From Geodermatophilus obscurus (GTDB lineage: Bacteria; Actinomycetota; Actinomycetes; Mycobacteriales; Geodermatophilaceae): 64,000 nt of DNA. This document shows, one piece after another, positions 39,537 through 59,574 of this stretch. The position numbers and the translations under genes are program-made. The stretch spans positions 62,001 to 126,000 of the forward strand of contig NZ_FRDM01000009.1 in the NCBI RefSeq assembly GCF_900143215.1, in the 5' to 3' direction. Under the pieces are notes generated by a model, which was not told the origin of the DNA, searched no databases, and worked only from the letters and a program-made list of their open reading frames with translations. Positions within the stretch are counted from its first letter, which is position 1. Each line of letters starts with the position of its first letter.

Positions 39537-39613
39537 CGCGGGGTGGAGCAGCTCGGTAGCTCGCTGGGCTCATAACCCAGAGGTCGCAGGTTCGAATCCT
39601 GCCCCCGCTACCA
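39537..39613 (+). tRNA. Initiator tRNA-fMet (CAT)
   Basis: A 77-nt cloverleaf can be drawn: acceptor CGCGGGG/CCCCGCT, D stem GAGC/GCTC, anticodon stem CTGGG/CCCAG around CTCATAA, T stem GCAGG/CCTGC around TTCGAAT, and an encoded CCA. The anticodon is CAT (39571-39573). Position 1-72 is an unpaired C-T, and the anticodon stem has three consecutive G-C pairs; both are initiator hallmarks. A strong terminator follows at once. Confidence 0.96.
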
Positions 39614-39777: not shown

Positions 39778-41361
39778 CTACTCGACCGATGCGCTGCCGT
39801 GTTGCCACGCGGCGATGCTGCGCGCCGCCCAGCTCAGGCGGGTGAAGCCCTCGTCGACCAGGCGGCGGATCGCCGGACCGGCGGGTCCGCCGCCGACGTG
39901 GACGGAAACGGCGTGGACGCCGCGCACACCGTGCGGGAACGGGGTCGAGGTCTGCTCCTCCTGCCACTGCCCGGCGGTGGTGCGGCAGCGGACCCGCAGC
40001 TCGTGCCGGCCGGGGGGAGCCGTCCAGCGGGCCGTCCACGGCCGCCAGGCGTCCGGGCCGAGGTCGAAGCCGAGCGCGGCGTCGACCCAGGGACCGCCGT
40101 CGACCTGCAGCTGCACCCGGTCGACGCCGACCGGCGGCGCCCAGGCGTAGCCGCGGACGGTGACCTCACCGGGCGCGAGGGAGCCGTGGGCGCCCGGGGT
40201 GTCGATGCGGGCGGCCGGGTGCACCGGGTAGGTGCCGTCGGCCCACCCGCGCGAGCCCCAGTACGACGGCGGCGGGGTCGCGGTGACGGTGAGCCGCCGC
40301 AGCCACTTGAGGTTGCCGTCCTGCCCGTGCCGGCCGGAGACCAGCAGCCGGGCGGGGCTGCCGTGCTCGCGGGGCAGCGGCTGCCCGGCCATGCCCACGG
40401 CGAGGAACCCGTGCGCGCGGGCGGCGGCCACCGGCAGCACGTTGGTGTAGCCGTCGACGGCCTCGGCGACCAGCCAGCCGTCGTCGTCGGGAACGCCGGC
40501 CCGGTCGAGCAGGTCGGCCAGGCCGATGCCGGTCCGGCGGGCGCAGCCCATCCGCGCGCCGCCGACCGGGTTGTGCACGCAGACCATGAGCAGGTCCCGC
40601 TCGGCCAGGGGCAGGGCGAGCAGCTCGGGCAGGGTCAGCGACAGCGGCTTCTCCACGTGCCCGCCCACCTCCAGCCGCCACGCGCCGAGGTCGGTGCGGG
40701 GCTCGGGCACGGTGACGTCGATGACGACCAGCTCGCCGGGCCGGGCGAGCAGCGGCGCGACGCCCTCCTGGGCTGCGGCCTCGGCGGCGGGGACCGGGGG
40801 CAGCGGCCGGGCGGGCGCCGGCAGCCGCACGCGGTCGCGCAGGGCGGCGGCGCCGCGGCGGCGGGCACGACGGTCGACGGCGACGACGGCGCCCGTGGCG
40901 GCGGCAGCGGCGGCCAGCACCGCCGGGGGCCGCACGGGCAGCGGGGCGACCGCGGCGGCGGCGACCAGCGTGCCGGCGGCCGTGGCGACGCCGGTGTCGC
41001 GGGCCGAGGCATCGCCGCGACGCAGCGCCAGGCAGCCGCCGAGGGCGTGCGGCAGCGCGGCCACGGCGGCGCCGAGGCCCGGGCGGCGGCCGGCCAGGGC
41101 ACCCCCCGTAGCGGCAGCCAGGCCGGCGGCGCCGGCGGCGAGCACGGCCAGGCCGGGCTTGTCGGCGCGGCCGACGAGGGCGACGCCGCCGTCGACGAGC
41201 ACCGCGGGGGCCGCGTCGACCAGGCCGCGCGCCAGCCCGGAGGACGGTGAGCGGCCGCGGCTGGTGGTGGAGGCGGTGATCTCGCCGGCCGCGGCGGCGA
41301 GCAGGCCGGCGAGCAGGCCGACCCGTCCGGGCCGGGGGCGGGCGATGCGTCGGGTGGTCAT
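39778..41361 (-). CDS. Membrane-associated molybdopterin-dependent oxidoreductase (sulfite oxidase fold)
   Basis: A 527-aa protein. The first about 190 residues contain several Ala/Leu-rich hydrophobic segments (probably four to five membrane helices). They are followed by a sulfite-oxidase/YedY-type Moco domain: PLSLTLPELLALP, then the Moco cysteine in MVCVHNPVGGARMGCARRTG, GDGYTNVLPV-like contacts and LLVSGRHGQDGNLKWLRRL. A C-terminal Mo-co dimerisation (Ig-like) domain completes it. The substrate is unknown; relatives act on sulfite or oxidised methionine. ATG 41361 has GAGGAG about 6-8 nt upstream. It follows the small membrane protein gene by 18 bp, so both come from the LuxR-type promoter at 41816. 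Confidence 0.88.
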   Translation of the reverse strand: MTTRRIARPRPGRVGLLAGLLAAAAGEITASTTSRGRSPSSGLARGLVDAAPAVLVDGGVALVGRADKPGLAVLAAGAAGLAAATGGALAGRRPGLGAAVAALPHALGGCLALRRGDASARDTGVATAAGTLVAAAAVAPLPVRPPAVLAAAAAATGAVVAVDRRARRRGAAALRDRVRLPAPARPLPPVPAAEAAAQEGVAPLLARPGELVVIDVTVPEPRTDLGAWRLEVGGHVEKPLSLTLPELLALPLAERDLLMVCVHNPVGGARMGCARRTGIGLADLLDRAGVPDDDGWLVAEAVDGYTNVLPVAAARAHGFLAVGMAGQPLPREHGSPARLLVSGRHGQDGNLKWLRRLTVTATPPPSYWGSRGWADGTYPVHPAARIDTPGAHGSLAPGEVTVRGYAWAPPVGVDRVQLQVDGGPWVDAALGFDLGPDAWRPWTARWTAPPGRHELRVRCRTTAGQWQEEQTSTPFPHGVRGVHAVSVHVGGGPAGPAIRRLVDEGFTRLSWAARSIAAWQHGSASVE

Positions 41362-41379
41362 CGGGACTCCTCGGGGCGG

Positions 41380-41808
41380 TCAGGCGCGGGCGGAGGTCGG
41401 GTCGGCGGTCATCGGCGGGAAGGCGGCCATCGCCAGCGCCGCGGCCAGCACCGTGCTCACCGGCCCCCACAGCACGACCCCGGCCGGGGTCAGCCAGCCG
41501 GCCGCGCCCGCCCCGGCGAGCACGGCCGCCGGGGCGGCGAGGACCGCGAGCACGGCGCCGGCCGCCCAGCCGCGGCAGTGCAGCCAGCCGGCGGTGGCCA
41601 GGGCCCAGCCGCTGACGACCGCGCCGGCGGCCGGCCAGGTGCCGGCGGCCGACGACGACCCGGCCAGTTCGAGGGCGACCATCGCGGCCACCAGCGGCAG
41701 CAGCGTGGCGCCGAAGGCGGTGACGAACCGGACCGCGGCGGAGGACCCGGACGCCGGCGGCCCGGGGACGTGGGTGTCGGTGGCCGGGAGCGGCGGCGCG
41801 GTGGACAT
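41380..41808 (-). CDS. Small integral membrane protein (four helices)
   Basis: A 142-aa protein with about four hydrophobic helices: FVTAFGATLLPLVAAMVALEL, AGAVVSGWALATAGWL, AAGAVLAVLAAPAAVLAGAG and GVVLWGPVSTVLAAALAMAAF. No family is recognised. It is the first gene of a two-gene operon with the molybdopterin oxidoreductase and may be its membrane partner. ATG 41808 lies 7 nt after a TAGCGT box (41821-41816, minus strand), so it is predicted leaderless. Confidence 0.75.
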   Translation of the reverse strand: MSTAPPLPATDTHVPGPPASGSSAAVRFVTAFGATLLPLVAAMVALELAGSSSAAGTWPAAGAVVSGWALATAGWLHCRGWAAGAVLAVLAAPAAVLAGAGAAGWLTPAGVVLWGPVSTVLAAALAMAAFPPMTADPTSARA

Positions 41809-41815
41809 GCGGCCG

Positions 41816-41861
41816 ACGCTAGGCAGGCGGCCGCGGGGTCACGCCGGCGAAACCGCCGGGG
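41816..41861 (-). promoter_or_regulatory. LuxR-regulon promoter A
   Basis: On the minus strand: palindrome CCGGCG-GTTT-CGCCGG (41859-41844), then GTGACC, 15 bp, TAGCGT (41821-41816) and the start near 41808. The palindrome centre is about 43 bp before the start. It overlaps the last codons and stop of the monooxygenase gene. The same block recurs at 43536 and 46414. Confidence 0.6.
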
Positions 41862-42966
41862 TCGCCGGCCCGCGACCGGGCACGTCGGTGGTCCCGGCTC
41901 CGGGAGTCAGCCGGGCGGCCAGCGCCTCGGCGTCGGCGCCGACGAACCCGAGCAGCGCCGACCCACGGCAGGTCTGCCAGGGCAGGCCGAGCACGTGCAG
42001 GCCGGGCACGTCGGTGGACCCGGCGGTGTGCCGGAGCTGCCCGTCGACGACGGCGCCGGGCACGTGCAGCCAGGAGTGGTCGGGGCGGTAGCCGGTGGCC
42101 CAGACGACCGCGTCGACGTCGACGGTGGTGCCGTCGGTGAAGGTGGCGGTGCGGTCGGCGAGGCCGGTCAGCCGGGGGCGGAGGTCCACCCCGCGGCGGC
42201 GCAGGTCGCGGGTGCGGGTGCCGATCACCAGGTCGCCGCGGGCGCGCAGCCGGCGGCCGACGCGGGTGTGCGCGGGCACGGTGAAGAACCCGACCGCGTC
42301 CAGCCAGGAGAACAGGTCGCGGCCGGCGATGCGCTGGGGCAGTTCGGTCGGCCGGGTGCCGACGGCGACGGTGACCGGCCGGGTGGCGGCCAGCTCCGCG
42401 GCGATCTGCAGGCCGGAGTTGGCGCCGCCGACCACCAGCACCCGGCCGCCGCCGGGCAGCTGGGTCGGGTTGCGGTACCGGGCGGTGTGCACCTGCGGGA
42501 CGTCCGGGTCCAGCGGGTCTGCGAAGGCCGGGATGTACGGGGTCTGGAAGGGGCCGGTGGCGACGACGACCTGCCGGGCGCGCAGCGTCCCGGTCGGGGT
42601 GGTGGCCTCGAAGGTGCCGTCGGTGTCGCGGTGCAGCCGGACCACCGGGGTGCCCAGCCGGACCGGCAGGGCGAAGTGGGCGGCGTAGGCGGCGAGGTAG
42701 TCGGCGACGTCGTCCTTGCCCGGGTGGGTGTCGGCCGGAGCGGGGAACGGCAGGCCGGGCAGCGAGTCGTACTGGGCGGGACTGAACAGCCGAAGCGAGT
42801 CCCACCGGGCCCGCCAGGAGGAGCCGATCTCCGGGCCGGCGTCGACCAGGAGGAAGTCCGCGCCGCGGCGGGCGAGGTGGTGACCGAGGGCGAGTCCGGC
42901 CTGGCCGGCACCGATGACGAGGACGTCGAGGAGCTCGCCGCGGTCGATGGGCGAGGTGGTCGGCAT
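41839..42966 (-). CDS. Flavin-containing monooxygenase-like NAD(P)/FAD oxidoreductase
   Basis: A 375-aa single-component flavoprotein. The FAD loop is VLVIGAGQAGLALGHHL (near residue 16), a flavin-monooxygenase-type segment is FATGPFQ-like (VVVATGPFQTPYIPAF), the NADPH loop is VLVVGGANSGLQIAAEL, and WATGYRPDHSWL closes the family signature. It matches the YhiM/CzcO-like class of actinobacterial monooxygenases. The substrate is unknown. ATG 42966 has GGAGAA 5-6 nt upstream. It is the second gene after the membrane protein ending at 43023 (56-bp gap), so it is probably read from promoter B. Confidence 0.9.
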   Translation of the reverse strand: MPTTSPIDRGELLDVLVIGAGQAGLALGHHLARRGADFLLVDAGPEIGSSWRARWDSLRLFSPAQYDSLPGLPFPAPADTHPGKDDVADYLAAYAAHFALPVRLGTPVVRLHRDTDGTFEATTPTGTLRARQVVVATGPFQTPYIPAFADPLDPDVPQVHTARYRNPTQLPGGGRVLVVGGANSGLQIAAELAATRPVTVAVGTRPTELPQRIAGRDLFSWLDAVGFFTVPAHTRVGRRLRARGDLVIGTRTRDLRRRGVDLRPRLTGLADRTATFTDGTTVDVDAVVWATGYRPDHSWLHVPGAVVDGQLRHTAGSTDVPGLHVLGLPWQTCRGSALLGFVGADAEALAARLTPGAGTTDVPGRGPATPAVSPA

Positions 42967-43022
42967 GGCTTCTCCAGGCAGAAGAGGAGTGGAGTGGGAG
43001 GGGGAGGGGGCCGGGTGAGCGG

Positions 43023-43502
43023 CTACACGAGGCCGACGGTGAGCAGCACGGTGGCGAGGCACAGGTCGGCGACCAGGCAGGTCTCGGCGTACCAGCGGGG
43101 CACCACGCGACCGAGACGGTGGTGGAGGGCGTCCCAGGCGGCGTGGGCCGTCCATCCGGCGGCGAGCACGTAGCGGGCCGCGTCGGGGTCGACGGCGACC
43201 GCGGTGATCGCGATGGCGCCGAAGGCGAGCACGCCGGTGGTCTGCGCGGTCAGCCGGCGTCGGGCGGCGAGCTCACCGCGCGCGGTGCCCCAGGTCAGGT
43301 AGATGACCGCGGCGAGCAGCACGCACCAGGCGCTGGTCCAGACCTGCACCTGTTCGGGCAGCGGAGAGAGGAGGGTCAGGCTGGCGGCGGTGGCGACGAA
43401 CGCGACGCCGGTGGGCCAACGTCGGGCCAGCACTGCGGGCAGGCCGGTCCGGCCGGTGCTGGGCGCGGCAGTTTCGGTAGGAGTGGTGACGGTGCTGGTC
43501 AA
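43023..43502 (-). CDS. Small integral membrane protein (about four helices)
   Basis: About 159 aa with hydrophobic segments GVAFVATAASLTLLSPL, VWTSAWCVLLAAVIYLTWGTA, TTGVLAFGAIAITAVAV and CLVADLCLATVLLTVGLV. Residues HAAWDALHHR in a loop could bind metal or haem, which is speculation. The TTG at 43502 is chosen as start: GAAGGAG lies 5 nt upstream, and the predicted promoter B would begin transcription near 43529, after the alternative GTG at 43532. No family is recognised. It heads an operon with the flavin monooxygenase. Confidence 0.72.
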   Translation of the reverse strand: MTSTVTTPTETAAPSTGRTGLPAVLARRWPTGVAFVATAASLTLLSPLPEQVQVWTSAWCVLLAAVIYLTWGTARGELAARRRLTAQTTGVLAFGAIAITAVAVDPDAARYVLAAGWTAHAAWDALHHRLGRVVPRWYAETCLVADLCLATVLLTVGLV

Positions 43503-43535
43503 CGGAGCTCCTTCGTCCGAGCGGGTCTGCACCGG

Positions 43536-43580
43536 ACGCTAGGAGCGAGCCGTCGGTGTCACGCCGGCAGAACCACCAGG
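43536..43580 (-). promoter_or_regulatory. LuxR-regulon promoter B
   Basis: On the minus strand: CTGGTG-GTTC-TGCCGG (43579-43564), GTGACA, 15 bp, then TAGCGT (43541-43536). Aligned with promoter A, 18 of 22 bases from the palindrome to GTGAC are identical and all spacings are the same. Confidence 0.6.
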
Positions 43581-43613
43581 TCGGTCGCCGGGACCTGACC
43601 GGGCTCCTCGGGG

Positions 43614-46397
43614 TCAGAGGTCCAGCGGGAGCGCGGTGAGTTCGGTGCGGGAGCTGACGCCGAGCTTGGTGAAGACGTTGCGCAGGTGGAAGTCGACGGT
43701 GCGGGGGCTGACGTAGAGCTGCGCGGCGGCGTCCCGGTTCGACAGCCCCTGCCGCACCAACTGGGCCACCTGGACCTCCTGCGGGGTGAGGTCCACCACG
43801 GTGGAGACGTTGCGGCGGCGGGTCGTCTCCCCGGACGCCCGCAGCTCCTGCCGGGCGCGGTCGGCCCACCGGCGCGCACCGAGGTCCTCGAACGTCTCCA
43901 GGGCGGCGCGCAGGTGGGGACGGGCGTCGACCCGGCGACGGGAGCGGCGCAGGAAGGCGCCGTAGGCCAGCTGGGTGCGGGCTCGGTCGGGTGGGCGGTC
44001 GGTCTTGGCGTGCGCGGCGAGGGCCTGCTCGAAGTGGCGCTCGGCCTCCGGTCCGTTCCTGAGCAGGGCCAGGCCGTGCTCGGCCACGGCCTGCGCCCAG
44101 GCAGAGCCGGTCGCCTCGGCAAAGCCGGCCAGCTCCTCCACCCAGGCGTGGGCCAGGTCCGGCCGCCCGGCCCGCACGGCGGCCTCGATGCGGTCGGTGG
44201 CGGCCAGCCGGCGAGTGATCGGGTGGCGTATCTGCTCCAGCTGGTGCAGCGCGCCGGCGGGCTCGGCGGCGTCGCGCACCCCGCGGACCCAGCGCAGGAC
44301 GTCGGGCACCACCTCGGCCAGGATGCCGAGCGGCTGCACGGCGCAGATCTGCTCCACGTCGGCGAGGTGCTGGTCGACGGTCTCGTCGCCACGCAGCGCG
44401 GCCAGCAACGCCAGCCACGCCGTCGGCAGGGCGGCCAACCCGCGGTGCCCGGACTGCTCGGCCAGCGGCAGCGCCTCGGCGGCCGCGGCGCGGGCAGTGG
44501 TCCACCGCCCGCTGGTCAGTTCGGCGAAGCCGAGCCGGGCCAGGGAGTAGAGGGTCATCAGCACGGCGCCGGTGCTCCGGGCCCGGGCCAGCAGCTGCTC
44601 GTGATACCGCCGGATCAGCGCGTCGTCGCCCAGGTACATCGCGGCGATGCCGAGGTTGGGGAGCAGGTCCTGGTCCTCCTCGGCCAGGTGCTCGGCGAGG
44701 GCGAAGGCCTCGTCGAGCGGACCCATCGCGGCCGGCCAGTCGCCGTGCACGGCGGCGTCGAGGCCGTGCAGCAGATCGGAGAAGCAGCGGGCGCGCAGCG
44801 GTGCTGCGGGCACCGGCGCGGGGACCAGAGCGGTGGGGTCGACGGCGCTGCCGGAACGTGCCCCGAACGCGGCGAGCGCCACGGCGAACATGGCCATCTC
44901 CCGCGCCCGCTGGTGGTCGTGGGGGGCGACCTCCGCGGCAGCCTCGAGCACCATGCGCTGCCCGGTGTGCAGCGAGCCGGTGTTCCACTCGATGCGGGCC
45001 CGCAGCCGCAGGACGTCAGCGCGCAGCAGCGGGTCCCGGGCCTGGGCCGCGGCGGCGTCGACCAGCGCCCGGGCCCGGGCCGGCTGAGCGGCCAGCCAGG
45101 CGGAGCGGGCTGCGGCGTAGAGCCGCTCGGCCTGGGCGTTCCCGGCCGGGGAGAGCTCGGCAGCGCGTTCCCAGGCGGACGCGGCTGCCTCCAGCCCCCC
45201 TCGCGCGCGGGCCCGCTCGGCGGCGGCGTCGAGCTCGGCGACGACGGCCTCGTCCGGCTCCTCGATGGAGGCTGCGAGGTGCCAGGCGCGCCGGTCGGCC
45301 TCCTCGGTGCCGGTCAGGACGGCGGCGAGGGCCCGGTGGGCCCGGCGGCGCTCGGTGCTGGTGACGGCGCCGTACACGGCCGAGCGCACCAGCGGGTGCC
45401 GGAGATCGACGGTGGCGTCGCGGATCCGGAGGAGGCCGGAGCGCTCGGCTGCCACCAGCGCGTCCTCGCCCGCCCCCAGGGCGGCGGCCGCCTGCCGCAC
45501 GACCCGCGTCCGACCGGAGTCGTCGGCAGCCGTGACCAGCAGCATCGTCCGGGCCGGCTCGGGCAGCCGCCGGTAGCGGTCGAGGAAGGCTCGTTCCACG
45601 CCCTCGGTCAGCGGCAGCCGGGCGGGCAACCGCACCCGGCCGGACAGCTGCTCGGACGTCAGGACCTCGGCGAGCTCCACGAGCGCCAGCGGGTTGCCCC
45701 CGGTGCTCGCGAGCAGCGCGTCGCGCACGACCGCGGGGACGGACACCCCGGCGCGGGCGCGGATCAGCTCACCGGCTGCCCCGGCGTCGATGCCTCCGAG
45801 GGAGAGGCGGGGCAGGTCGCCGCTGTCGAAGGTGCGCACGTCGGCGTCCCGGGCGGCGAACACGAGGGCGACCCGCTCGACCTGCAGTCGGCGAGCCACG
45901 AACAGGAGTGCTGCAGCGGAGGCGTCGTCGAGCCAGTGGGCGTCGTCGACGACGGCGAGCACCGGGCGGTGCTGTCCGGCGTCGGCGAGCACGCTCAGCG
46001 CCGCCAGGAAGACGAGGAAGCGGTCGCCGGGGCCGTCGTCGACCTCACCGAACGCCGCCCGCAGCGCCCGGGCCTGCGGCTGCGGCAGGTGCTGCACGCG
46101 GTCGTCCATGACCGGGCGCAGCAGCCGCTGCAGCGCGGCGAAGGCCAGCGGGGACTCCGACTCCACACCCTGGGTGCGCAGCACCGTCATGCCGTCGGCC
46201 CGCGCGATCGCGTCGGCCAGCAGCGCCGACTTGCCCACACCGGGCTGCCCCACCACCACCAGGGCCCCGCCCCGCCCGGCCCATGCTTCGTCCACCAACG
46301 CCGCGACGGCCTCGCGCTCGCGGTCCCGTCCGGACAACACGGCGAGACCGTAGTCCGAATCGGACGCGACCGAGTCGCTTCCCGGCGCAGGACCCAC
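43614..46397 (-). CDS. Large ATP-binding LuxR-family regulator (LAL) of the redox/export cluster
   Basis: A 927-aa LAL regulator. The N-terminal AAA-type ATPase has Walker A VVVGQPGVGKSALL (about 48-61) and Walker B VLAVVDDAHWLDD. The middle is a long helical TPR-like sensor region. The C-terminal LuxR helix-turn-helix is LTPQEVQVAQLVRQGLSNRDA ... RTVDFHLRNVFTKLGV. Such proteins respond to a small ligand with ATP-dependent activation. GTG 46397 is preferred because GAGGAG lies 7 nt upstream; an ATG at 46412 has no good site. It is flanked by operons whose promoters share one operator, so it is the likely regulator, and site C lies in its own divergent promoter region. Confidence 0.9.
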   Translation of the reverse strand: MGPAPGSDSVASDSDYGLAVLSGRDREREAVAALVDEAWAGRGGALVVVGQPGVGKSALLADAIARADGMTVLRTQGVESESPLAFAALQRLLRPVMDDRVQHLPQPQARALRAAFGEVDDGPGDRFLVFLAALSVLADAGQHRPVLAVVDDAHWLDDASAAALLFVARRLQVERVALVFAARDADVRTFDSGDLPRLSLGGIDAGAAGELIRARAGVSVPAVVRDALLASTGGNPLALVELAEVLTSEQLSGRVRLPARLPLTEGVERAFLDRYRRLPEPARTMLLVTAADDSGRTRVVRQAAAALGAGEDALVAAERSGLLRIRDATVDLRHPLVRSAVYGAVTSTERRRAHRALAAVLTGTEEADRRAWHLAASIEEPDEAVVAELDAAAERARARGGLEAAASAWERAAELSPAGNAQAERLYAAARSAWLAAQPARARALVDAAAAQARDPLLRADVLRLRARIEWNTGSLHTGQRMVLEAAAEVAPHDHQRAREMAMFAVALAAFGARSGSAVDPTALVPAPVPAAPLRARCFSDLLHGLDAAVHGDWPAAMGPLDEAFALAEHLAEEDQDLLPNLGIAAMYLGDDALIRRYHEQLLARARSTGAVLMTLYSLARLGFAELTSGRWTTARAAAAEALPLAEQSGHRGLAALPTAWLALLAALRGDETVDQHLADVEQICAVQPLGILAEVVPDVLRWVRGVRDAAEPAGALHQLEQIRHPITRRLAATDRIEAAVRAGRPDLAHAWVEELAGFAEATGSAWAQAVAEHGLALLRNGPEAERHFEQALAAHAKTDRPPDRARTQLAYGAFLRRSRRRVDARPHLRAALETFEDLGARRWADRARQELRASGETTRRRNVSTVVDLTPQEVQVAQLVRQGLSNRDAAAQLYVSPRTVDFHLRNVFTKLGVSSRTELTALPLDL

Positions 46398-46413
46398 ACG
46401 CCGGCTCCTCATC

Positions 46414-46458
46414 CCGGCGGAATCACCGGCGAGGCCCGGTCCCGCCGACGGCGACGGT
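46414..46458 (+). promoter_or_regulatory. LuxR-regulon promoter C (divergent LuxR/MFS region)
   Basis: CCGGCG-GAAT-CACCGG (46414-46429) followed by GAGGCC at the same spacing as GTGACC in site A. The -10 position holds only GACGGT, a weak box. It lies between the regulator and the exporter gene. Confidence 0.5.
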
Positions 46459-46495
46459 GGCAGGCACACCAAGACCTGCCACCGAGGAGACGACC

Positions 46496-47983
46496 ATGTC
46501 GATCCACTCCGCTGCCGAACCGGCGGCGCACGCCCACGCGCACCCCTCACCCCACCCGACCCCGGCAACCGTCGACGAGCCGCGGCGGCCGTGGACCGTC
46601 TTCGGTCTGATGATCGCCGCACAGTTCATGGTGATCCTGGACGTCTCGGTGGTGAACGTCGCGCTGCCGTCCATCAGCCGCGCCCTGCACCTGTCCGCCG
46701 CGGACTACCAGTGGACGATCAGCGCCTACGTACTGCTCTCCGGCGGCCTGCTACTGCTCGGCGGCCGCATCGCCGACCTGCTGAACCGGCGGGGAGCGTT
46801 TCTCACCGGGATCGGCCTGTTCACCGTGGCGTCGCTCCTCAGCGGCCTCGCCCAGGCGCCGTGGACGCTGATCCTCGCCCGCGCCGGACAGGGCGCCGGC
46901 GCCGCACTGCTCACCCCGGCCGCGATGTCGATCATCATGACGCACTACGCGGGTCGTCAGCGGCAGACCGCCCTCGGCGTTTGGGGCGCGATCGGCAGTC
47001 TGGGCATCGCCGCCGGCGTGCTGTTCGGCGGGGTGCTGACCAGCGCGGTCGACTGGCGGGCCGTGTTCTTCATCAACGTGCCGATCGGCGCGGTCGTGGT
47101 CCTCGGCACCCTCCGCACCGTCACCCGCGGCGAGCGGCAGCCGGCCGCGCTGCGACGGCTGGACGCACCCGGCGCGCTGACCCTGGTGGCCGGGCTGCTG
47201 GCGCTCGTCTGCGGCATCGAGGCCACCCGCTCGGCCGGCTGGACCTCGGCCCGGACCTGGATCGCCCTGGCCGCTGCCGCGATCCTGCTGACGACGTTCG
47301 CCCGGCTGGAGCGGCGCGCCGCTGACCCGCTGGTGCCGCCGGCCACCTGGCGGATCCGGTCGCTGGTCTCCGCCTCGGCGGTGATGGCCGGCGTGACCGG
47401 TGTCGTCGTCGGCGCGATCTTCCTGAGCTCGCTCTACCTGCAGGACGTCACCGGCGCCTCCCCGATCATCGCCGGGCTGGAGTTCCTGCCACTGGCCGCC
47501 GCCATCACCCTCGCCGCCACGGTCGCGTCGAAGGTCATCGACCGGATCGGTGCCCGCCTCCTCATCCTCGGCGGCCTGGTCGTCATGGCCGCGGGCGTGC
47601 TGCTGCTCGCGGCGAACGCCGGCGGCACCTCCTACGCCGCCGATGTGCTGCCCGGCTTCCTGCTCGTCGGTGCCGGCGTGGGCCCGATGTTCGTCGCCAT
47701 CGCGATCGCCGCGATGAGCGACGTGCCGGCCGACCGATCCGGCCTGGCCTCGGGGCTGATGATGACCGGCCACGAGATCGGAGCCGCCCTCGGTGTCGCC
47801 GCCCTGACCGCCATCGCCGGCGACCTCACCAGCCGGGCGGGGCTCATCACCGGCTACGGTCACGCCTTCGTTGCGACCGCCGGCATCCTCGCCGCACTGT
47901 TCCTGCTCACGGCCCTCGCCGTCCCCGGCGGCAGGGCCGCCGTGGGTGCGAGCGCCCACGGGCACGGCGGTCACGGCCACTGA
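46496..47983 (+). CDS. DHA2-family MFS drug exporter (14 helices)
   Basis: A 495-aa major facilitator with about 14 membrane helices. DHA2 markers include LDVSVVNVALPSI in helix 1, LLLGGRIADLLNRRGAFLTG in the loop 2-3 region, LARAGQGAGAALLTPAAMSII and GVWGAIGSLGIAAGVLFGG (motif C area). These are proton antiporters of drugs or metabolites. Both ends are histidine-rich (HAHAHPSPH at the N-terminus, HGHGGHGH at the C-terminus), which suggests metal binding. ATG 46496 has GAGGAGA 5 nt upstream. It is divergent from the LAL regulator and carries operator site C. Confidence 0.93.
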   Translation: MSIHSAAEPAAHAHAHPSPHPTPATVDEPRRPWTVFGLMIAAQFMVILDVSVVNVALPSISRALHLSAADYQWTISAYVLLSGGLLLLGGRIADLLNRRGAFLTGIGLFTVASLLSGLAQAPWTLILARAGQGAGAALLTPAAMSIIMTHYAGRQRQTALGVWGAIGSLGIAAGVLFGGVLTSAVDWRAVFFINVPIGAVVVLGTLRTVTRGERQPAALRRLDAPGALTLVAGLLALVCGIEATRSAGWTSARTWIALAAAAILLTTFARLERRAADPLVPPATWRIRSLVSASAVMAGVTGVVVGAIFLSSLYLQDVTGASPIIAGLEFLPLAAAITLAATVASKVIDRIGARLLILGGLVVMAAGVLLLAANAGGTSYAADVLPGFLLVGAGVGPMFVAIAIAAMSDVPADRSGLASGLMMTGHEIGAALGVAALTAIAGDLTSRAGLITGYGHAFVATAGILAALFLLTALAVPGGRAAVGASAHGHGGHGH

Positions 47984-47990
47984 CCCGATC

Positions 47991-48026
47991 CCGGGCGGTG
48001 CGGCGGGATCCCGTCGCACCGCCCGG
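47991..48026. terminator. Terminator of the MFS gene
   Basis: CCGGGCGGTGCG (47991-48002) pairs with CGCACCGCCCGG (48015-48026). The 12-nt loop includes GGGATCCC. Confidence 0.8.
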
Positions 48027-48384
48027 CGCAGCGCCGCCAGCGTCAGGTCCACCGCCGAACGGCCAGTAGCCCACGCCGGGTCCTCCTCCAGGAGCCCCCG
48101 CGACCTCCACCCAGGAGTACCTGGCGCGCTTCCGCGAGCAGGAGCTGATCGGTGGTGCGCATCGGGCCCGGCTCGCCCGGCACCTGCAGCCCTCCCGGCT
48201 GTGACGGCGGCGTCCCGCTGTCGCGGCGGCTGACTGGCACGCCGTCCATGCCGCCGGCCACACCGCACGGGCTGCGCCCTGCCCCGCCCGGTGGAGATCC
48301 CGGCGATTCACCCGGTGAGACGCCCCCGGCCTGGCGTCGACGCTTCTGCCGACCGCACCACCACCCGCACCCCGAGGAGTTCCC
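48027..48384. other. 358-bp gap, possibly with a decayed minus-strand gene
   Basis: No intact gene. On the minus strand a frame starting ATG 48162 (MRTTDQLLLAEARQVLLGG) looks coding for about 20 codons. After a shift near 48090-48110 a second frame, LLEEDPAWATGRSAVDLTLAALRRAV, has coding-like third positions. Together they may be a frameshifted remnant of an unrecognised gene. The copZ ribosome-binding site (GAGGAG) ends the gap. Confidence 0.3.
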
Positions 48385-48618
48385 ATGCTGTCCAGCACGC
48401 CGCGCACCTTCATCGGCTCGACCACCTTCACCGTCACCGGCATGACCTGCGGGCACTGCCAGCGCGCCGTCACCGAGGAGATCGCCGCCGTCGCCGGCGT
48501 CGAGACCGTCACCGTCGACCTGGCCAGCGGCACCGTCACCGTCACCGCCGAGCGCCCCGTGGACCGGGCCGACATCGCCGCCGCCGTCGACGAGGCCGGC
48601 TACGCCCTCGTCCCGTGA
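48385..48618 (+). CDS. copZ: CopZ-like copper chaperone (HMA domain)
   Basis: A 77-aa single heavy-metal-associated domain. The metal loop is GMTCGHCQRAV (CxxC), and the ferredoxin-like fold spans TTFTVTGM to AGYALVP. CopZ carries Cu(I) in the cytoplasm to P1B ATPases. ATG 48385 has GAGGAG 6 nt upstream. The copper ATPase lies three genes downstream in the same direction. No CsoR-type repressor gene is present in the window. Confidence 0.92.
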   Translation: MLSSTPRTFIGSTTFTVTGMTCGHCQRAVTEEIAAVAGVETVTVDLASGTVTVTAERPVDRADIAAAVDEAGYALVP

Positions 48619-48653
48619 CCTCCGCCCACCTCGATCCTCACCGGAGACCCGCC

Positions 48654-49106
48654 GTGCCCACCCCGACCCACACACCCAGCGCCGCCACGGCGCACGCCGA
48701 GACCGCGCACACCACGCATCACCTGAGCGCCAAGAATTTCACCCTCCACTTCCTCGAGATGGTCGTCGCGATGGCCGTCGGCATGGTGGCCCTGCACCCG
48801 GTGTGGACCCTCGTCCTCGACGCCGTCGGCGCCCCCGGCCTGATGCACAACCCCTACACGGGCGCGCTGATCATGGCCACGAACATGACCGTCGCCATGT
48901 CCGCGTGGATGAAGGTCCGCGGCCACCGCTGGCGGCCCATCGCCGAGATGGGCGCGGCCATGTACCTGCCCTTCCTGGTGCTCTTCGTCCCCCTCGCACT
49001 CGGCCTCATCGGCGAGAGCGCCCTGATGCTCTGGGGCCACGTGCTCATGCTCCCGGCGATGGCCGCGGCGATGCTGCTGCGCCCCCACGAGTACGCCTAC
49101 TGCTGA
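48654..49106 (+). CDS. Small His/Met-rich membrane protein of the copper cassette
   Basis: A 150-aa protein. A His/Thr-rich N-terminus (THTPSAATAHAETAHTTHH) precedes about four membrane helices: LHFLEMVVAMAVGMVALHPV, GALIMATNMTVAMSAWMKV, AAMYLPFLVLFVPLALGLI and LMLWGHVLMLPAMAAAMLL. The helices contain many Met and a few His, as in copper-handling membrane proteins. I do not recognise the family. GTG 48654 has CGGAGA about 7-8 nt upstream. It follows copZ by 35 bp and is closed by a strong terminator, so it is probably co-transcribed with copZ. Confidence 0.75.
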   Translation: MPTPTHTPSAATAHAETAHTTHHLSAKNFTLHFLEMVVAMAVGMVALHPVWTLVLDAVGAPGLMHNPYTGALIMATNMTVAMSAWMKVRGHRWRPIAEMGAAMYLPFLVLFVPLALGLIGESALMLWGHVLMLPAMAAAMLLRPHEYAYC

Positions 49107-49119
49107 CGCCAGGACGACC

Positions 49120-49150
49120 GGCGCGGCGGGAGCGGCCCTCCCGCCGCGCC
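49120..49150. terminator. 13-bp perfect-stem terminator
   Basis: GGCGCGGCGGGAG (49120-49132) pairs with CTCCCGCCGCGCC (49138-49150) around CGGCC. It ends the copZ-membrane protein transcript. Confidence 0.88.
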
Positions 49151-49178
49151 ACTGCCACGACCTCCACCGGAGCCCGCC

Positions 49179-49724
49179 ATGACCGCTTCCACCATCACGA
49201 TCCGCCGCGCGACCCCCGCGGACGCCGGGACCGTCACCGCGATGGTCCGCGAGATCGCCACCCACGAGGACCAGGCCGAGCACGTGCAGGTGACGGACGA
49301 GCACTGGCGCCAGCTGCTCGACCGACCCGAGGTCACAGTGCTGCTCGCCGAGCGCGACCGCGACGCGATCGGCTACGTCTCCGCCGTCCGCCAGCTGCAC
49401 CTGTGGACCGGTGGCGACGTGCTCAACCTCGACGACCTCTACGTCCGCCCTGGCCACCGCGACGCCGGCGCCGGCCGGCACCTCATGGCCGCCCTGGCCG
49501 CCGTCGCCGCACCCGAGCAGCTGCTCATCCGGTGGGGCATGGAGGTCGACAACGTCGACGCCCAGCGGTTCTACCGCCGCCTCGGCGCGACTCTCCGGCC
49601 CAAGATCCTCGCCGCCTGGACGCCCGCCGCGCACAGCGCGCTGGCCGTCGACCACGGACCTTCCCGAGAACCTGGTGGAAACGCCGGTTCGAGCCCGGTC
49701 CTCACCTCGAACGATCAGCTGTAG
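49179..49724 (+). CDS. GNAT-family N-acetyltransferase
   Basis: A 181-aa GNAT protein: [21 protein letters not shown] at the start, then [21 protein letters not shown] (acetyl-CoA loop, about 88-108) and the late segment [13 protein letters not shown]. The acceptor is unknown. The last about 25 residues (after [12 protein letters not shown]) do not look like GNAT sequence, and the DNA there contains a tRNA T-arm-like motif (49683-49699), so the natural C-terminus may have been replaced. It stands 31 bp before the copper ATPase. Confidence 0.85.
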
Positions 49725-49755
49725 CCGAACAGCCATCCGACCCCAGGAGCCCGGG

Positions 49756-53010
<3,255 letters not shown>

Positions 53011-57264: not shown

Positions 57265-58242
57265 TCAGGTGACGGTGATGACGACCTTGCCTCGCGCGTG
57301 CCCGTCCTCCACGTGCCGTAGGGCGGCCGCGGTGTCGGCCAGCGGATAGCTCCGGTCGAGGACGGGGGTGACCTGTCCGGTCTCGACGAGCTCGGTGACG
57401 ACGAGCAGGTGCTCCCGGGCCCAGGTGCTCGGCAGCGGCCGCAACCGCTGCCGGACGAGTCCGTCGAGCACCGCCACGCGGAGGATCGTCGCGATCGGGC
57501 CGAGCAGGTGGCCGGGCGAGCCGCCGGCGTTGAACACCAGGGTGCCGGTGGGGGTGAGCGCCCGACGCAGCCGGCCCAGCGGCTGGCTGCCGGCGTTGTC
57601 GAGGATCACGTCGTAGCGCGTGCGCCCGTCGGTGAAGTCCTCGGCGGTGTAGTCGATGACGTGCGCGGCGCCGATCGAGCCGACGAGCTCGACGTTGCGT
57701 GTGCTGCACACCCCGGTGACCTCCGCGCCCAGCGCGGCCGCGATCTGGACGGCGAAGCTGCCGACGCCACCGGCGGCGCCGTTGATCAGCACCCGCTGCC
57801 CGGCCTGAACCTGACCGGCGTCCCGGATCGCGCGCAGGGCGGTCTGCCCGGTCATCGGCACGGCCGCCGCCTGCTCGAAGGTCAGCCCGGCCGGCTTGGG
57901 CACCACCCGGTCCGCGTCGGCGCGCGCGTACTCGGCGAACGAGCCGTCGAACCAGCCGAGCACCTCGTCGCCGGGCGCCGGGCCGCGCACGCGTGAGCCG
58001 ACCGCCGCTACCTGCCCGGCCCCGTCGACTCCGGCCACCCGCTGCTTCGGCCGGGTCAGCCCGACACCGCCGATGAGCCGGGCGATGTAGGGGTCGCCGC
58101 GGACCATGTGCCAGTCGTAGGGGTTGACCGCGGCGGCGTGCACGCGCACGAGCACGTCGTCGGGGCCGATGTGGGGGAGGTCGGTGTCCACGAGCTGCAG
58201 GACGTCCGGGGGGCCGAACCGCTCCTGGACGATCGCCTTCAT
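57265..58242 (-). CDS. NADPH:quinone oxidoreductase-like (zinc-independent MDR)
   Basis: A 325-aa medium-chain reductase: MKAIVQERFGPPDVLQL at the start, GVDGAGQVAAVGSRV, the cofactor loop INGAAGGVGSFAVQIA (about 150-165), and the C-terminal PLADTAAALRHVEDGHARGKVVITV. No zinc ligands are seen, as in quinone oxidoreductases. It probably reduces quinones or other electrophiles with NADPH. It converges on the frameshifted flavoprotein gene with 35 bp between. It lies 88 bp after the DUF4386 gene and may belong to the same LuxR-controlled unit. Confidence 0.9.
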   Translation of the reverse strand: MKAIVQERFGPPDVLQLVDTDLPHIGPDDVLVRVHAAAVNPYDWHMVRGDPYIARLIGGVGLTRPKQRVAGVDGAGQVAAVGSRVRGPAPGDEVLGWFDGSFAEYARADADRVVPKPAGLTFEQAAAVPMTGQTALRAIRDAGQVQAGQRVLINGAAGGVGSFAVQIAAALGAEVTGVCSTRNVELVGSIGAAHVIDYTAEDFTDGRTRYDVILDNAGSQPLGRLRRALTPTGTLVFNAGGSPGHLLGPIATILRVAVLDGLVRQRLRPLPSTWAREHLLVVTELVETGQVTPVLDRSYPLADTAAALRHVEDGHARGKVVITVT

Positions 58243-58330
58243 CTCGGCTCCTTCGTTGCTCGCTGGATGGTGGTGTCGGAGCCGACCCCGGCTGTCCCGT
58301 GGGTGGGGCGGCCGGGGCCGGTGACAGCGC

Positions 58331-59092
58331 TCAGGCCGGTGACAGTTCGGAGTTCCGGTCCCGGGCGCCGGAGGGGAGTTCGGCCACGGCGGACGGCCGG
58401 AAGCCCTTGACGGTCAGGTAGACGCCGAGCGAGAACTCCCAGACGGCGATCGGGAGCGCGGCGAGCGCGATCGGGCCCGTCCGGTCGAAGACGCCGAAGA
58501 AGATCGCGATGTCGGCGGCCAGCAGCAGCGGGGCACCGACGAGCCCGATGGTGGGCAGGATGCGCGGCACCAGGCCGGACCGGTACAGGACGTAGCCCAG
58601 GCACAGCGCGTTGAAGACCGGCGCGAGGCTCTGGCTGAGCAGGAACGTCCAGTCGTAGACCGCGGCCAGGGTGTGGCCGGTGGTGGCCAGCGACGCCGGG
58701 TCCGCGTCTGCGGTGCCGGCGACGTCGTTCTTCAGGTTGACGAGAGAGAGGACGCTGACGACGCCGACGATGATGAGCGCGCCCTCCACCACGCGGGATG
58801 TGACGAACCCGAGGGCGGCGGTCTCGCTGACCCGCTTCGCCACCGGGAACAGCACCACGGCGGTGCCGATGCCGGCCAGGGCGACGACGACCTCGGAGAA
58901 GGCGCCCCACATCACGCCGGTGTCGCTGCCTGCGCCGAGAACGAAGTCGGCGCCGTTCCGCACCGGCTGGAACACGATGAGGGTGGGGATCGACACGAAG
59001 GTGATCAGGTACAGGATCCCGGCGGCCAGCGAGGTCCGGCGCATCGTGTCGGGCCGTCGTGGCGCTGCGGGGGTGTGCGCGGTGGTGGTCAT
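58331..59092 (-). CDS. DUF4386 family membrane protein
   Basis: A 253-aa protein with about six membrane helices. DUF4386 features: RRTSLAAGILYLITFVSIPTL, VVVALAGIGTAVVLFPVAKR, VEGALIIVGVVSVLSL, LSQSLAPVFNALCLGYVLYRSGLVPR and IGLVGAPLLLAADIAIFFG. Function is unknown. ATG 59092 overlaps the stop of the upstream small gene (ATGA), so the pair is translationally coupled and likely transcribed from the operator-bearing promoter near 59450. Confidence 0.88.
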   Translation of the reverse strand: MTTTAHTPAAPRRPDTMRRTSLAAGILYLITFVSIPTLIVFQPVRNGADFVLGAGSDTGVMWGAFSEVVVALAGIGTAVVLFPVAKRVSETAALGFVTSRVVEGALIIVGVVSVLSLVNLKNDVAGTADADPASLATTGHTLAAVYDWTFLLSQSLAPVFNALCLGYVLYRSGLVPRILPTIGLVGAPLLLAADIAIFFGVFDRTGPIALAALPIAVWEFSLGVYLTVKGFRPSAVAELPSGARDRNSELSPA

Positions 59093-59379
59093 GTCGCGTC
59101 CTTCGAGGGGTCGGCGGGCCGTCTGGTGGAGGTGTGCGGTGGGTCCGGGTCGATGTGCGTGACCGCGAGCAGCGGCAGGCCCAGGTCGCGGACCTTGCGC
59201 AGCAGGCCGTGCAGTGCGGCCTGGTCGAGCGCCGCGCCGGTGAGGACGGTGCTGCCGTCGTCGGCGCGGGTGAGGGTCATCCCGTCGAACCAGGCGGCCC
59301 AGCGGGAGTCCAGGTGGCCCGCGAGGCGGATCTCGTAGCGGCTCGAGTCGGAGGGGCCGACGGTGGGCTGCTTCGTCAT
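59089..59379 (-). CDS. Small conserved protein of the DUF4386 operon
   Basis: A 96-aa soluble protein: SRYEIRLAGHLDSRWAAWFDGMTL, then TVLTGAALDQAALHGLLRKVRDLGLPLLAV. The pattern is common in actinobacteria next to LuxR-type regulators and DUF4386 genes; its function is not known to me. ATG 59379 is preceded by weak GGGGA. It is the first gene after a promoter with TACGTT at 59456-59451 and a palindromic operator at 59478-59497. Confidence 0.8.
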   Translation of the reverse strand: MTKQPTVGPSDSSRYEIRLAGHLDSRWAAWFDGMTLTRADDGSTVLTGAALDQAALHGLLRKVRDLGLPLLAVTHIDPDPPHTSTRRPADPSKDAT

Positions 59380-59450
59380 CGAGTCCCCTGTCCACGTGCC
59401 GGCCGGGAGGGTCCTCGGCCGGGCGTTCCGGCGTTCGCCGGTGCACGGGG

Positions 59451-59497
59451 AACGTAGGAACGGGGGTGGTGAGCGCGGATCACCACGTGTGGTGATC
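59451..59497 (-). promoter_or_regulatory. Promoter with palindromic LuxR-type operator
   Basis: GATCACCAC-GT-GTGGTGATC (59478-59497) is a perfect 9-bp inverted repeat with a 2-bp spacer. On the minus strand TACGTT (59456-59451) is the -10, so the start is near 59444 and the operator centre is at about -43. This is a class-II activator position next to the -35. The upstream LuxR-type regulator gene ends at 59575. Confidence 0.6.
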
Positions 59498-59574
59498 TCG
59501 TTGGTGACCCGGGCCCGAGGAGGCGGTGCGGACCCGAACCAGCCGCGACGGCGAGCCGGACGGCCGCCGGTGGC

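Follow-up and report, generated by a model that had tools for sequence, protein, structure and literature searches.

A 64,000-nucleotide stretch of the Geodermatophilus obscurus genome (NZ_FRDM01000009.1, positions 62,001–126,000 of the forward strand, hereinafter the window; genome 5.24 Mb) codes for a LAL regulator, a 932-aa protein combining a STAND-type AAA ATPase, TPR repeats and a GerE domain (43614–46412, minus strand), which lies amidst five copies of a palindromic operator (A–E) packed inside 7.8 kb (41843–49688). We propose that this LAL is probably the activator of a copper-stress regulon that includes the metallochaperone CopZ, the ATPase CopA, a DHA2-type exporter, and flavin- and molybdenum-dependent redox enzymes. 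The operator-bearing loci of its close relatives point to copper homeostasis, because the operator precedes the genes for CopZ and CopA, at least one of which is linked to the regulator in 38 of 51 close-LAL loci as against none of 28 distant-LAL loci. For the same reasons, we abandon the view of the first-pass annotation of this DNA that the genes form a sulfur or metal redox module unlike any known system.

These counts come from a named set of 80 loci of LAL homologues, from which one (L226, with a partial LAL at a contig end) was excluded, the remainder being divided at 47% identity. The close relatives, 37 from outside and 14 from inside the Geodermatophilaceae, span Nocardioides, Georgenia, Intrasporangiaceae, Sphaerisporangium, Cryobacterium, Pseudonocardiaceae, Micromonospora and Streptomyces. 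A separate family set comprises 34 loci retrieved from 112 Geodermatophilaceae genomes, which were searched with the proteins of the window.

Five operators in the window

Operator A (41843–41860, minus strand) precedes the genes for a small hydrophobic protein and a SUOX-fold molybdopterin enzyme (MP142–SUOX), and overlaps the 3′ end of the gene for a flavin-dependent monooxygenase (FMO). The latter and its membrane-protein partner (MP159–FMO) are in turn preceded by operator B (43563–43580, minus strand), and operator C (46413–46430, plus strand) lies between the start of the LAL gene and that of an MFS exporter. The first-pass annotation had reported 16-mers common to these three promoters, and they are indeed present: CCGGCGGTTTCGCCGG at 41859–41844, CTGGTGGTTCTGCCGG at 43579–43564 and CCGGCGGAATCACCGG at 46414–46429. 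Its finding that A and B share 18 of the 22 positions up to and including GTGAC also stands, with TAGCGT following in both at 16 bases past GTGAC (15 past the hexamer GTGACN). Absent from that annotation are operator D (48299–48316, plus strand), which precedes the genes for CopZ, a further membrane protein and a GNAT acetyltransferase (CopZ–MP150–GNAT), and operator E (49671–49688, plus strand), which precedes CopA and itself falls within the GNAT gene, at its 3′ end. A scan of the window for exact operators recovered none besides A–E.

Each operator is situated 52–86 bp upstream of the start of its operon. The −10-like TAGCGT elements of promoters A (41816–41821) and B (43536–43541), both on the minus strand, would center the operator roughly 43 bp upstream of the expected start of transcription; as the ATG of the first gene behind promoter A is at 41808, its transcript may be leaderless. 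Operator C is weaker than A and B, with two departures from the family pattern and no clear −10 element. Operator E departs from that pattern at three positions in the window, with relatives showing a TT-centered form; at the equivalent position, ten family loci have an exact or one-mismatch operator.

The operator accompanies close relatives of the LAL

The pattern CCYGGYGRTTYHVCCGGY was settled on the Geodermatophilaceae genomes before the named loci were retrieved, making the latter an out-of-sample test. It is found exactly in 40 of the 51 close-LAL loci (68 sites) as compared to none of the 28 distant-LAL loci, while 200 column-shuffled versions of the pattern gave a mean of 0.07 and a maximum of 2 sites on the same 51 loci. 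This distribution extends well beyond the family: 29 of the 37 loci from outside the Geodermatophilaceae have the exact pattern (41 sites), as do 11 of the 14 from inside. With up to one mismatch, the operator is present in 46 close and 3 distant loci.

CopZ is the commonest linked gene among the nine window genes tested in the close-LAL loci (38 of 51), and CopZ or CopA is linked in 25 of the 37 loci outside the family. Individually, MFS genes are linked in 31 of the 51 loci, CopA in 24, GNAT in 20, FMO in 18 and SUOX in 5. Sorted by the downstream gene, the sites with up to one mismatch precede CopZ in 29 cases, MFS in 27 (a count that takes in some more distant MFS genes), CopA and FMO in 14 each, MP159 in 8, MP142 in 3 and SUOX in 2. 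Thus, the co-occurrence of the operons with the regulator in other genomes, which the first-pass annotation had proposed as a check, is indeed seen. From their lower linkage, FMO and SUOX look like accessory members of the regulon.

The common operator that the annotation had posited for the MP159–FMO, MP142–SUOX and exporter genes is likewise conserved in relatives, with the family loci showing it upstream of all three. When the upstream regions of the MFS gene from the window and 15 relatives were aligned, 9 of the 16 had the operator with up to one mismatch. At the FMO and SUOX promoters its spacing to TAGCGT is 16 bases, except in genomes G049 and G058, where it is 17. Genome G055 has its SUOX gene and its LAL on different contigs, yet an exact operator is retained at the SUOX gene (locus L081, G055:C10:424000–442000). 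That stretch also carries CopZ and CopA homologs, with the operator there solely before SUOX.

An improbable alternative is that the operator is bound by some other, unlinked factor, such as a sigma factor or a different regulator, with the LAL being a mere neighbor. Operators A and B extend into the −35 region, GTGAC-N16-TAGCGT could itself represent a promoter class, and the surroundings of some close LALs contain no operator. However, the −35-like bases vary by gene class (GTGAC, GAGAC, CCGAG, GCGAC) with the dyad being retained, on account of which we rank a sigma-factor promoter class low. Moreover, the operator tracks close LALs across many actinobacterial families with no exact match beside distant ones, and the LAL is the only protein with a DNA-binding domain among the ten genes scanned (39778–53010), none of which codes for a CsoR, MerR or two-component protein.

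Specificity of the motif

The first-pass annotation had suggested searching the genome with the bare 16-bp palindrome. In this form the motif fails, with 13,823 matches per strand at up to two mismatches and 9,747 for the reversed control; we hence discarded it as non-specific. The longer operator, in contrast, is rare. The general 18-mer CCYGGYGRWWNNVCCGGY, in whose composition the sites of the window were already considered, matches the genome exactly at 10 places, five of which are A–E; its reversed control matches nowhere. The other five all fall within long frames with high GC3, which is weak evidence as to their status because A–E also lie inside mechanically called frames, with two of them, A and E, extending over the 3′ end of a gene. 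Under uniform scatter, the chance of 5 of 10 matches falling in a 7.8-kb span is ~2e-12, a value flattered by the derivation of the pattern from these very sites; the out-of-sample test with CCYGGYGRTTYHVCCGGY is the better one. The composite GCCGGCGTGAC-N16-TAGCGT has 34 genomic matches at up to three mismatches, with A and B being perfect and the other 32 having three mismatches each.

Across the 112 family genomes, the composite CGGCGTGAC-N16-TAGCGTC has 29 matches in 24 genomes at up to one mismatch (reversed control: 9), and each of the 11 exact matches belongs either to a LAL locus or to the SUOX gene of G055. Similarly, 43 of 63 exact matches to the 19-mer are at LAL loci or, once, at that SUOX gene, in 20 genomes. 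Class-wide, the 22-base form of the operator is present in only two of 394 genomes, that of the window and G203, and in the latter a close LAL relative (51–58%, split into two pieces) shares the contig of the operator at a distance of about 1.6 kb. Among 30 hand-picked genomes of the 394, 14 of the 29 besides G203 have a LAL match at E <= 1e-90, none above 42% identity, and the other 15 have no LAL match at this threshold.

That the palindromes resemble one another by coincidence, given the high G+C content of the genome, or through recent promoter duplication, with no shared regulation, would be in keeping with the thousands of near matches to the 16-mer. We regard this as very improbable, as the extended operator is conserved across many genera at the corresponding promoters, and exact matches are absent from both the distant-LAL loci and the reversed control of the genome.

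The LAL regulator

The N-terminal AAA/STAND module of the LAL is recognized by AAA_16 (PF13191, 73.8 bits, over the cut-off) and its C-terminal helix-turn-helix by GerE (PF00196, 58.1 bits, residues 875–926). Between them, an AlphaFold2 model (pLDDT 90.3, pTM 0.85) displays helical repeats at residues ~340–860; a match to TPR_12 stays under its cut-off. The best fold match in the PDB is the STAND–TPR structure 6mfv (E 2.9e-11), with low TM-scores (0.29/0.39).

For the tree of the LALs, frames shorter than 700 aa and duplicates were removed, reducing 131 sequences to 101; the residue counts that follow exclude three deep-branching family LALs (L108, L109 and L111). Two histidines in the TPR region are specific to the clade, His779 and His801, each being present in 64 of 68 close LALs as compared to 0 and 3 of 30 others, respectively; His723, His833, His604 and His793 are less strictly conserved. 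Overall, histidine accounts for 8 of the 86 clade-specific TPR positions, i.e., 9.3% against a background of 3.6%, and thus its enrichment is moderate; the LAL of the window retains 6 of the 8. A bolder reading, which we advance tentatively as a possibility, is that the group constitutes a new class of copper sensor-activators that binds copper directly via these histidines, with flavin and molybdenum redox repair enzymes sharing the operator of CopZ and CopA. Counting against a metal-binding role, tryptophan is also enriched at these positions (7 of 86 against 2.0%), with alanine and leucine present too, and a search for a widely conserved cysteine across the close LALs found none, the best being in 30 of 68. 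A metal site built on a widely conserved cysteine was accordingly discarded.

Four close relatives (G043, G047, G049 and G064; loci L083, L084, L085 and L086) have tandem genes, LAL1 and LAL2; G055 additionally carries part of a second LAL where a contig ends. In the genome of the window there is a single close LAL, which belongs to the LAL1 sub-branch, with the next matches at 40% and 39% identity among the 7 of 59 candidates that were scored. This single LAL adjoins operator B, where the tandem relatives have LAL2. G021, G022, G026, G028 and G107 have a LAL that groups on the side of LAL2 in the tree. That the same operator accompanies either LAL1 or LAL2 suggests that the two share their DNA specificity. 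Elsewhere in the window (57265–62370), a QOR-like zinc-type alcohol dehydrogenase is found near a second, MalT-like LAL (931 aa, TPR_MalT 197 bits).

Genes of the cluster

Downstream of operator D, the 77-aa CopZ-like HMA protein (48385–48618, plus strand) matches PF00403 with 62 bits and has a GMTCGHC motif; we call it CopZ-like because it does not reach the cut-off of the equivalog model NF047957 (68 bits, cut-off 85). It is followed by MP150 (48654–49106, plus strand), a membrane protein that reads as Met/His-rich and has no family match, and by the GNAT acetyltransferase (49179–49724, plus strand; PF00583, 58 bits). Homologs of MP150 occur in 10 of the 51 named loci, and in two Modestobacter loci (L183 and L191) MP150 has an operator of its own.

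CopA (49756–53010, plus strand; 1084 aa) is a Cu(I) P-type ATPase scoring 588 bits against TIGR01511 (cut-off 397); against NF007952, a narrower model of the E. coli type, it falls short of the cut-off (664 versus 1316). Its best match in the PDB is the copper exporter 3j09, with 602 bits as compared to 303 for a Zn ATPase. An N-terminal HMA domain (PF00403, 60 bits) and the transmembrane motifs of the family, CPC and YN/MSSS, can be read in the translation. CopA is also extended at its C-terminus by about 320 aa, for which neither a Pfam match nor a PDB relative below E 0.2 was found; six named relatives have CopA frames of 1080–1088 aa, which suggests conservation of the extension.

The MFS protein (46496–47983, plus strand; PF07690, 158 bits) is a DHA2-type exporter with ends that read as His-rich, falling just under the cut-off of TIGR00711 (218 versus 230 bits). 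The FMO (41839–42966, minus strand; 375 aa; PF13738, 115 bits) is ArsO-like, with 4usq as its best PDB match (167 bits) and 4usr, 4c5o and 4a9w also at the top. An arsenic module was considered and rejected, as the ArsO model NF040505 gives only 230 bits against a cut-off of 425. Its partner MP159 (43023–43502, minus strand) is a membrane protein with a weak match to DUF6010 (PF19473, 21.4 bits, under the cut-off). At another locus (L211:12789–13265), a DUF6010 protein scoring 66 bits, over the cut-off, is linked to the operator, which ties DUF6010 to the same regulon.

The SUOX-fold molybdopterin enzyme (39778–41361, minus strand; 527 aa; PF00174, 113 bits) has a hydrophobic N-terminal part and a second, Ig-like domain, Big_7. 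In the alignment, it retains the cysteine that we take to be the molybdenum ligand, but not the arginine pair of CAGNRR (VHNPVGG instead), presumably involved in substrate binding in sulfite oxidase; its pocket hence appears to differ from that of sulfite oxidase. It scores under the NCBIfam cut-offs for SoxC, SorA, SorT and MsrP (best 80.5 versus 420). A sulfite-oxidation module was rejected, given that the enzyme lies under the sulfite-dehydrogenase cut-offs, that the operator serves copper genes and that SUOX is linked in so few loci. MP142 (41380–41808, minus strand) reads as a hydrophobic, probably membrane, protein with no family match. Adjoining this end of the cluster is a tRNA-Met gene (39537–39613), a possible insertion point of the module.

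Loci that depart from the pattern

Several observations weigh against the LAL being a copper-stress activator. Thirteen of the 51 named close loci lack CopZ and CopA, five of them on stretches shorter than 13 kb, and 11 lack an exact operator, six of these having a one-mismatch site. The 47% line separating close from distant LALs was picked after the results were seen; it falls in a gap in identity between 47.5 and 42.5. One locus counted among the 51 by identity, L238 (48% over about half of the protein), which the tree places outside with weak support, has neither operator nor copper gene and thus weighs in the same direction. In the family set, the exact operator is present in 20 of the 34 loci. 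The retrieved DNA of L102 and L104–L107 (LALs of 54–57%) shows no exact operator and no match to CopZ, CopA, MFS, FMO or SUOX, and that of the deeper L108, L109 and L111 (47–48%) shows neither exact operators nor copper genes. Thus, the module is not carried by every close LAL, and sub-branches of the LALs have other partners. As for the motif, 11 of the 18 one-mismatch matches to the CGGCGTGAC composite in the family genomes fall outside LAL loci (7 are within), as do 20 of the 63 exact 19-mers (reversed control: 4). Additionally, two genes of the CsoR family are present elsewhere in the genome of the window.

The remaining irregular family loci are mixed: L080 has five one-mismatch sites, L082 is at a contig start with a partial LAL, L101 has CopZ and no operator, L110 has an FMO match and one one-mismatch site, and L113 (42% LAL) has neither operator nor module genes in the retrieved DNA.

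A further point against a copper-directed role is that the operator is linked elsewhere to genes for a DJ-1/PfpI protein, a zinc-type alcohol dehydrogenase, an Asp/Glu racemase, an alpha/beta hydrolase and an ABC ATPase. From its presence before these genes in distant loci we conclude that the regulon varies by lineage and may answer both copper and damage of an oxidative or electrophile kind. The LAL might then sense oxidants or electrophiles more widely (hypochlorite, quinones, aldehydes), the copper genes being one part of the response because such stress mobilizes copper or oxidizes copper carriers. The FMO and SUOX genes of the window and the loci devoid of CopZ and CopA would also fit such a role. 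Nevertheless, we consider it rather unlikely, as CopZ is the most linked of the window genes and CopA is itself linked in nearly half of the close loci. Furthermore, in L087–L089 (G052, G053 and the first locus of G111), every operator with up to one mismatch precedes CopZ or CopA. CopZ is also present in the second G111 locus (L090), where one of the two one-mismatch sites lies ahead of it and the other has no matched gene. A Nocardioides locus (L192) also carries the metallochaperone CopM (91.7 versus a cut-off of 90).

A model for the proposed regulon

In the copper-stress regulon that we favor, copper, or damage caused by it, would be sensed via the TPR region of the LAL, whose ATP-bound form might oligomerize, as in MalT. 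Its GerE domains would then bind CCYGGYG-RWWN-NVCCGGY, which is centered at about −43 relative to the expected start and adjoins a degenerate −35 element. From there the LAL could recruit RNA polymerase at five promoters, namely those of CopZ–MP150–GNAT, CopA, the DHA2 exporter, MP159–FMO and MP142–SUOX. CopZ and CopA are families that function in the removal of Cu(I), which they would here carry out of the cell, while the DHA2 exporter, the FMO and the SUOX-fold enzyme may handle copper-linked damage or waste by export or repair.

If true, a STAND-type LuxR activator of CopZ and CopA would add a further class of copper regulator, and genes for the FMO, SUOX-fold and DUF6010-like proteins would be placed in copper stress or the oxidative stress linked to it. 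In addition, the defined operator offers a means of predicting the LAL regulon in many actinobacteria.

Comparison with known systems

Known LALs include regulators of maltose utilization and of antibiotic clusters. The LAL of the window shares with these MalT-type LuxR proteins the N-terminal STAND ATPase, the TPR repeats, the C-terminal GerE domain and an operator at an activator position near the −35 element, but its group has conserved TPR residues and an operator of its own. The known bacterial copper regulators belong to a small number of families, including CsoR, CueR, CopY and CusSR. Their regulons likewise feature a chaperone of the CopZ type along with the Cu(I) ATPase CopA; in contrast, the candidate regulator here is a 932-aa STAND/LuxR protein. 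A search of one open-access library by title and the opening of the abstract, with subscription papers mostly outside its scope, found no LAL or LuxR copper regulator. Peptides from two LuxR homologs are reported in the Kineococcus copper proteome (PMC2928746).

Among the enzymes, the FMO matches in fold and length both ArsO and the flavin monooxygenases of the SMFMO/CFMO type (4usq, 4usr, 4c5o and 4a9w), differing from ArsO by its score under the model cut-off. MsrP of E. coli is, like the molybdenum enzyme of the window, a SUOX-fold protein. The window enzyme differs from it in scoring under the MsrP cut-off, in possessing the Big_7 domain and in having a partner, MP142, that matches no family. 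Nonetheless, in both cases a SUOX-fold molybdenum enzyme and a membrane partner gene are, in the window by our proposal, under a copper regulator. According to a study of E. coli (PMC9302797), copper acts through CusSR to induce MsrPQ, which repairs CusF; MsrPQ is the nearest parallel for the molybdenum enzyme of the window.

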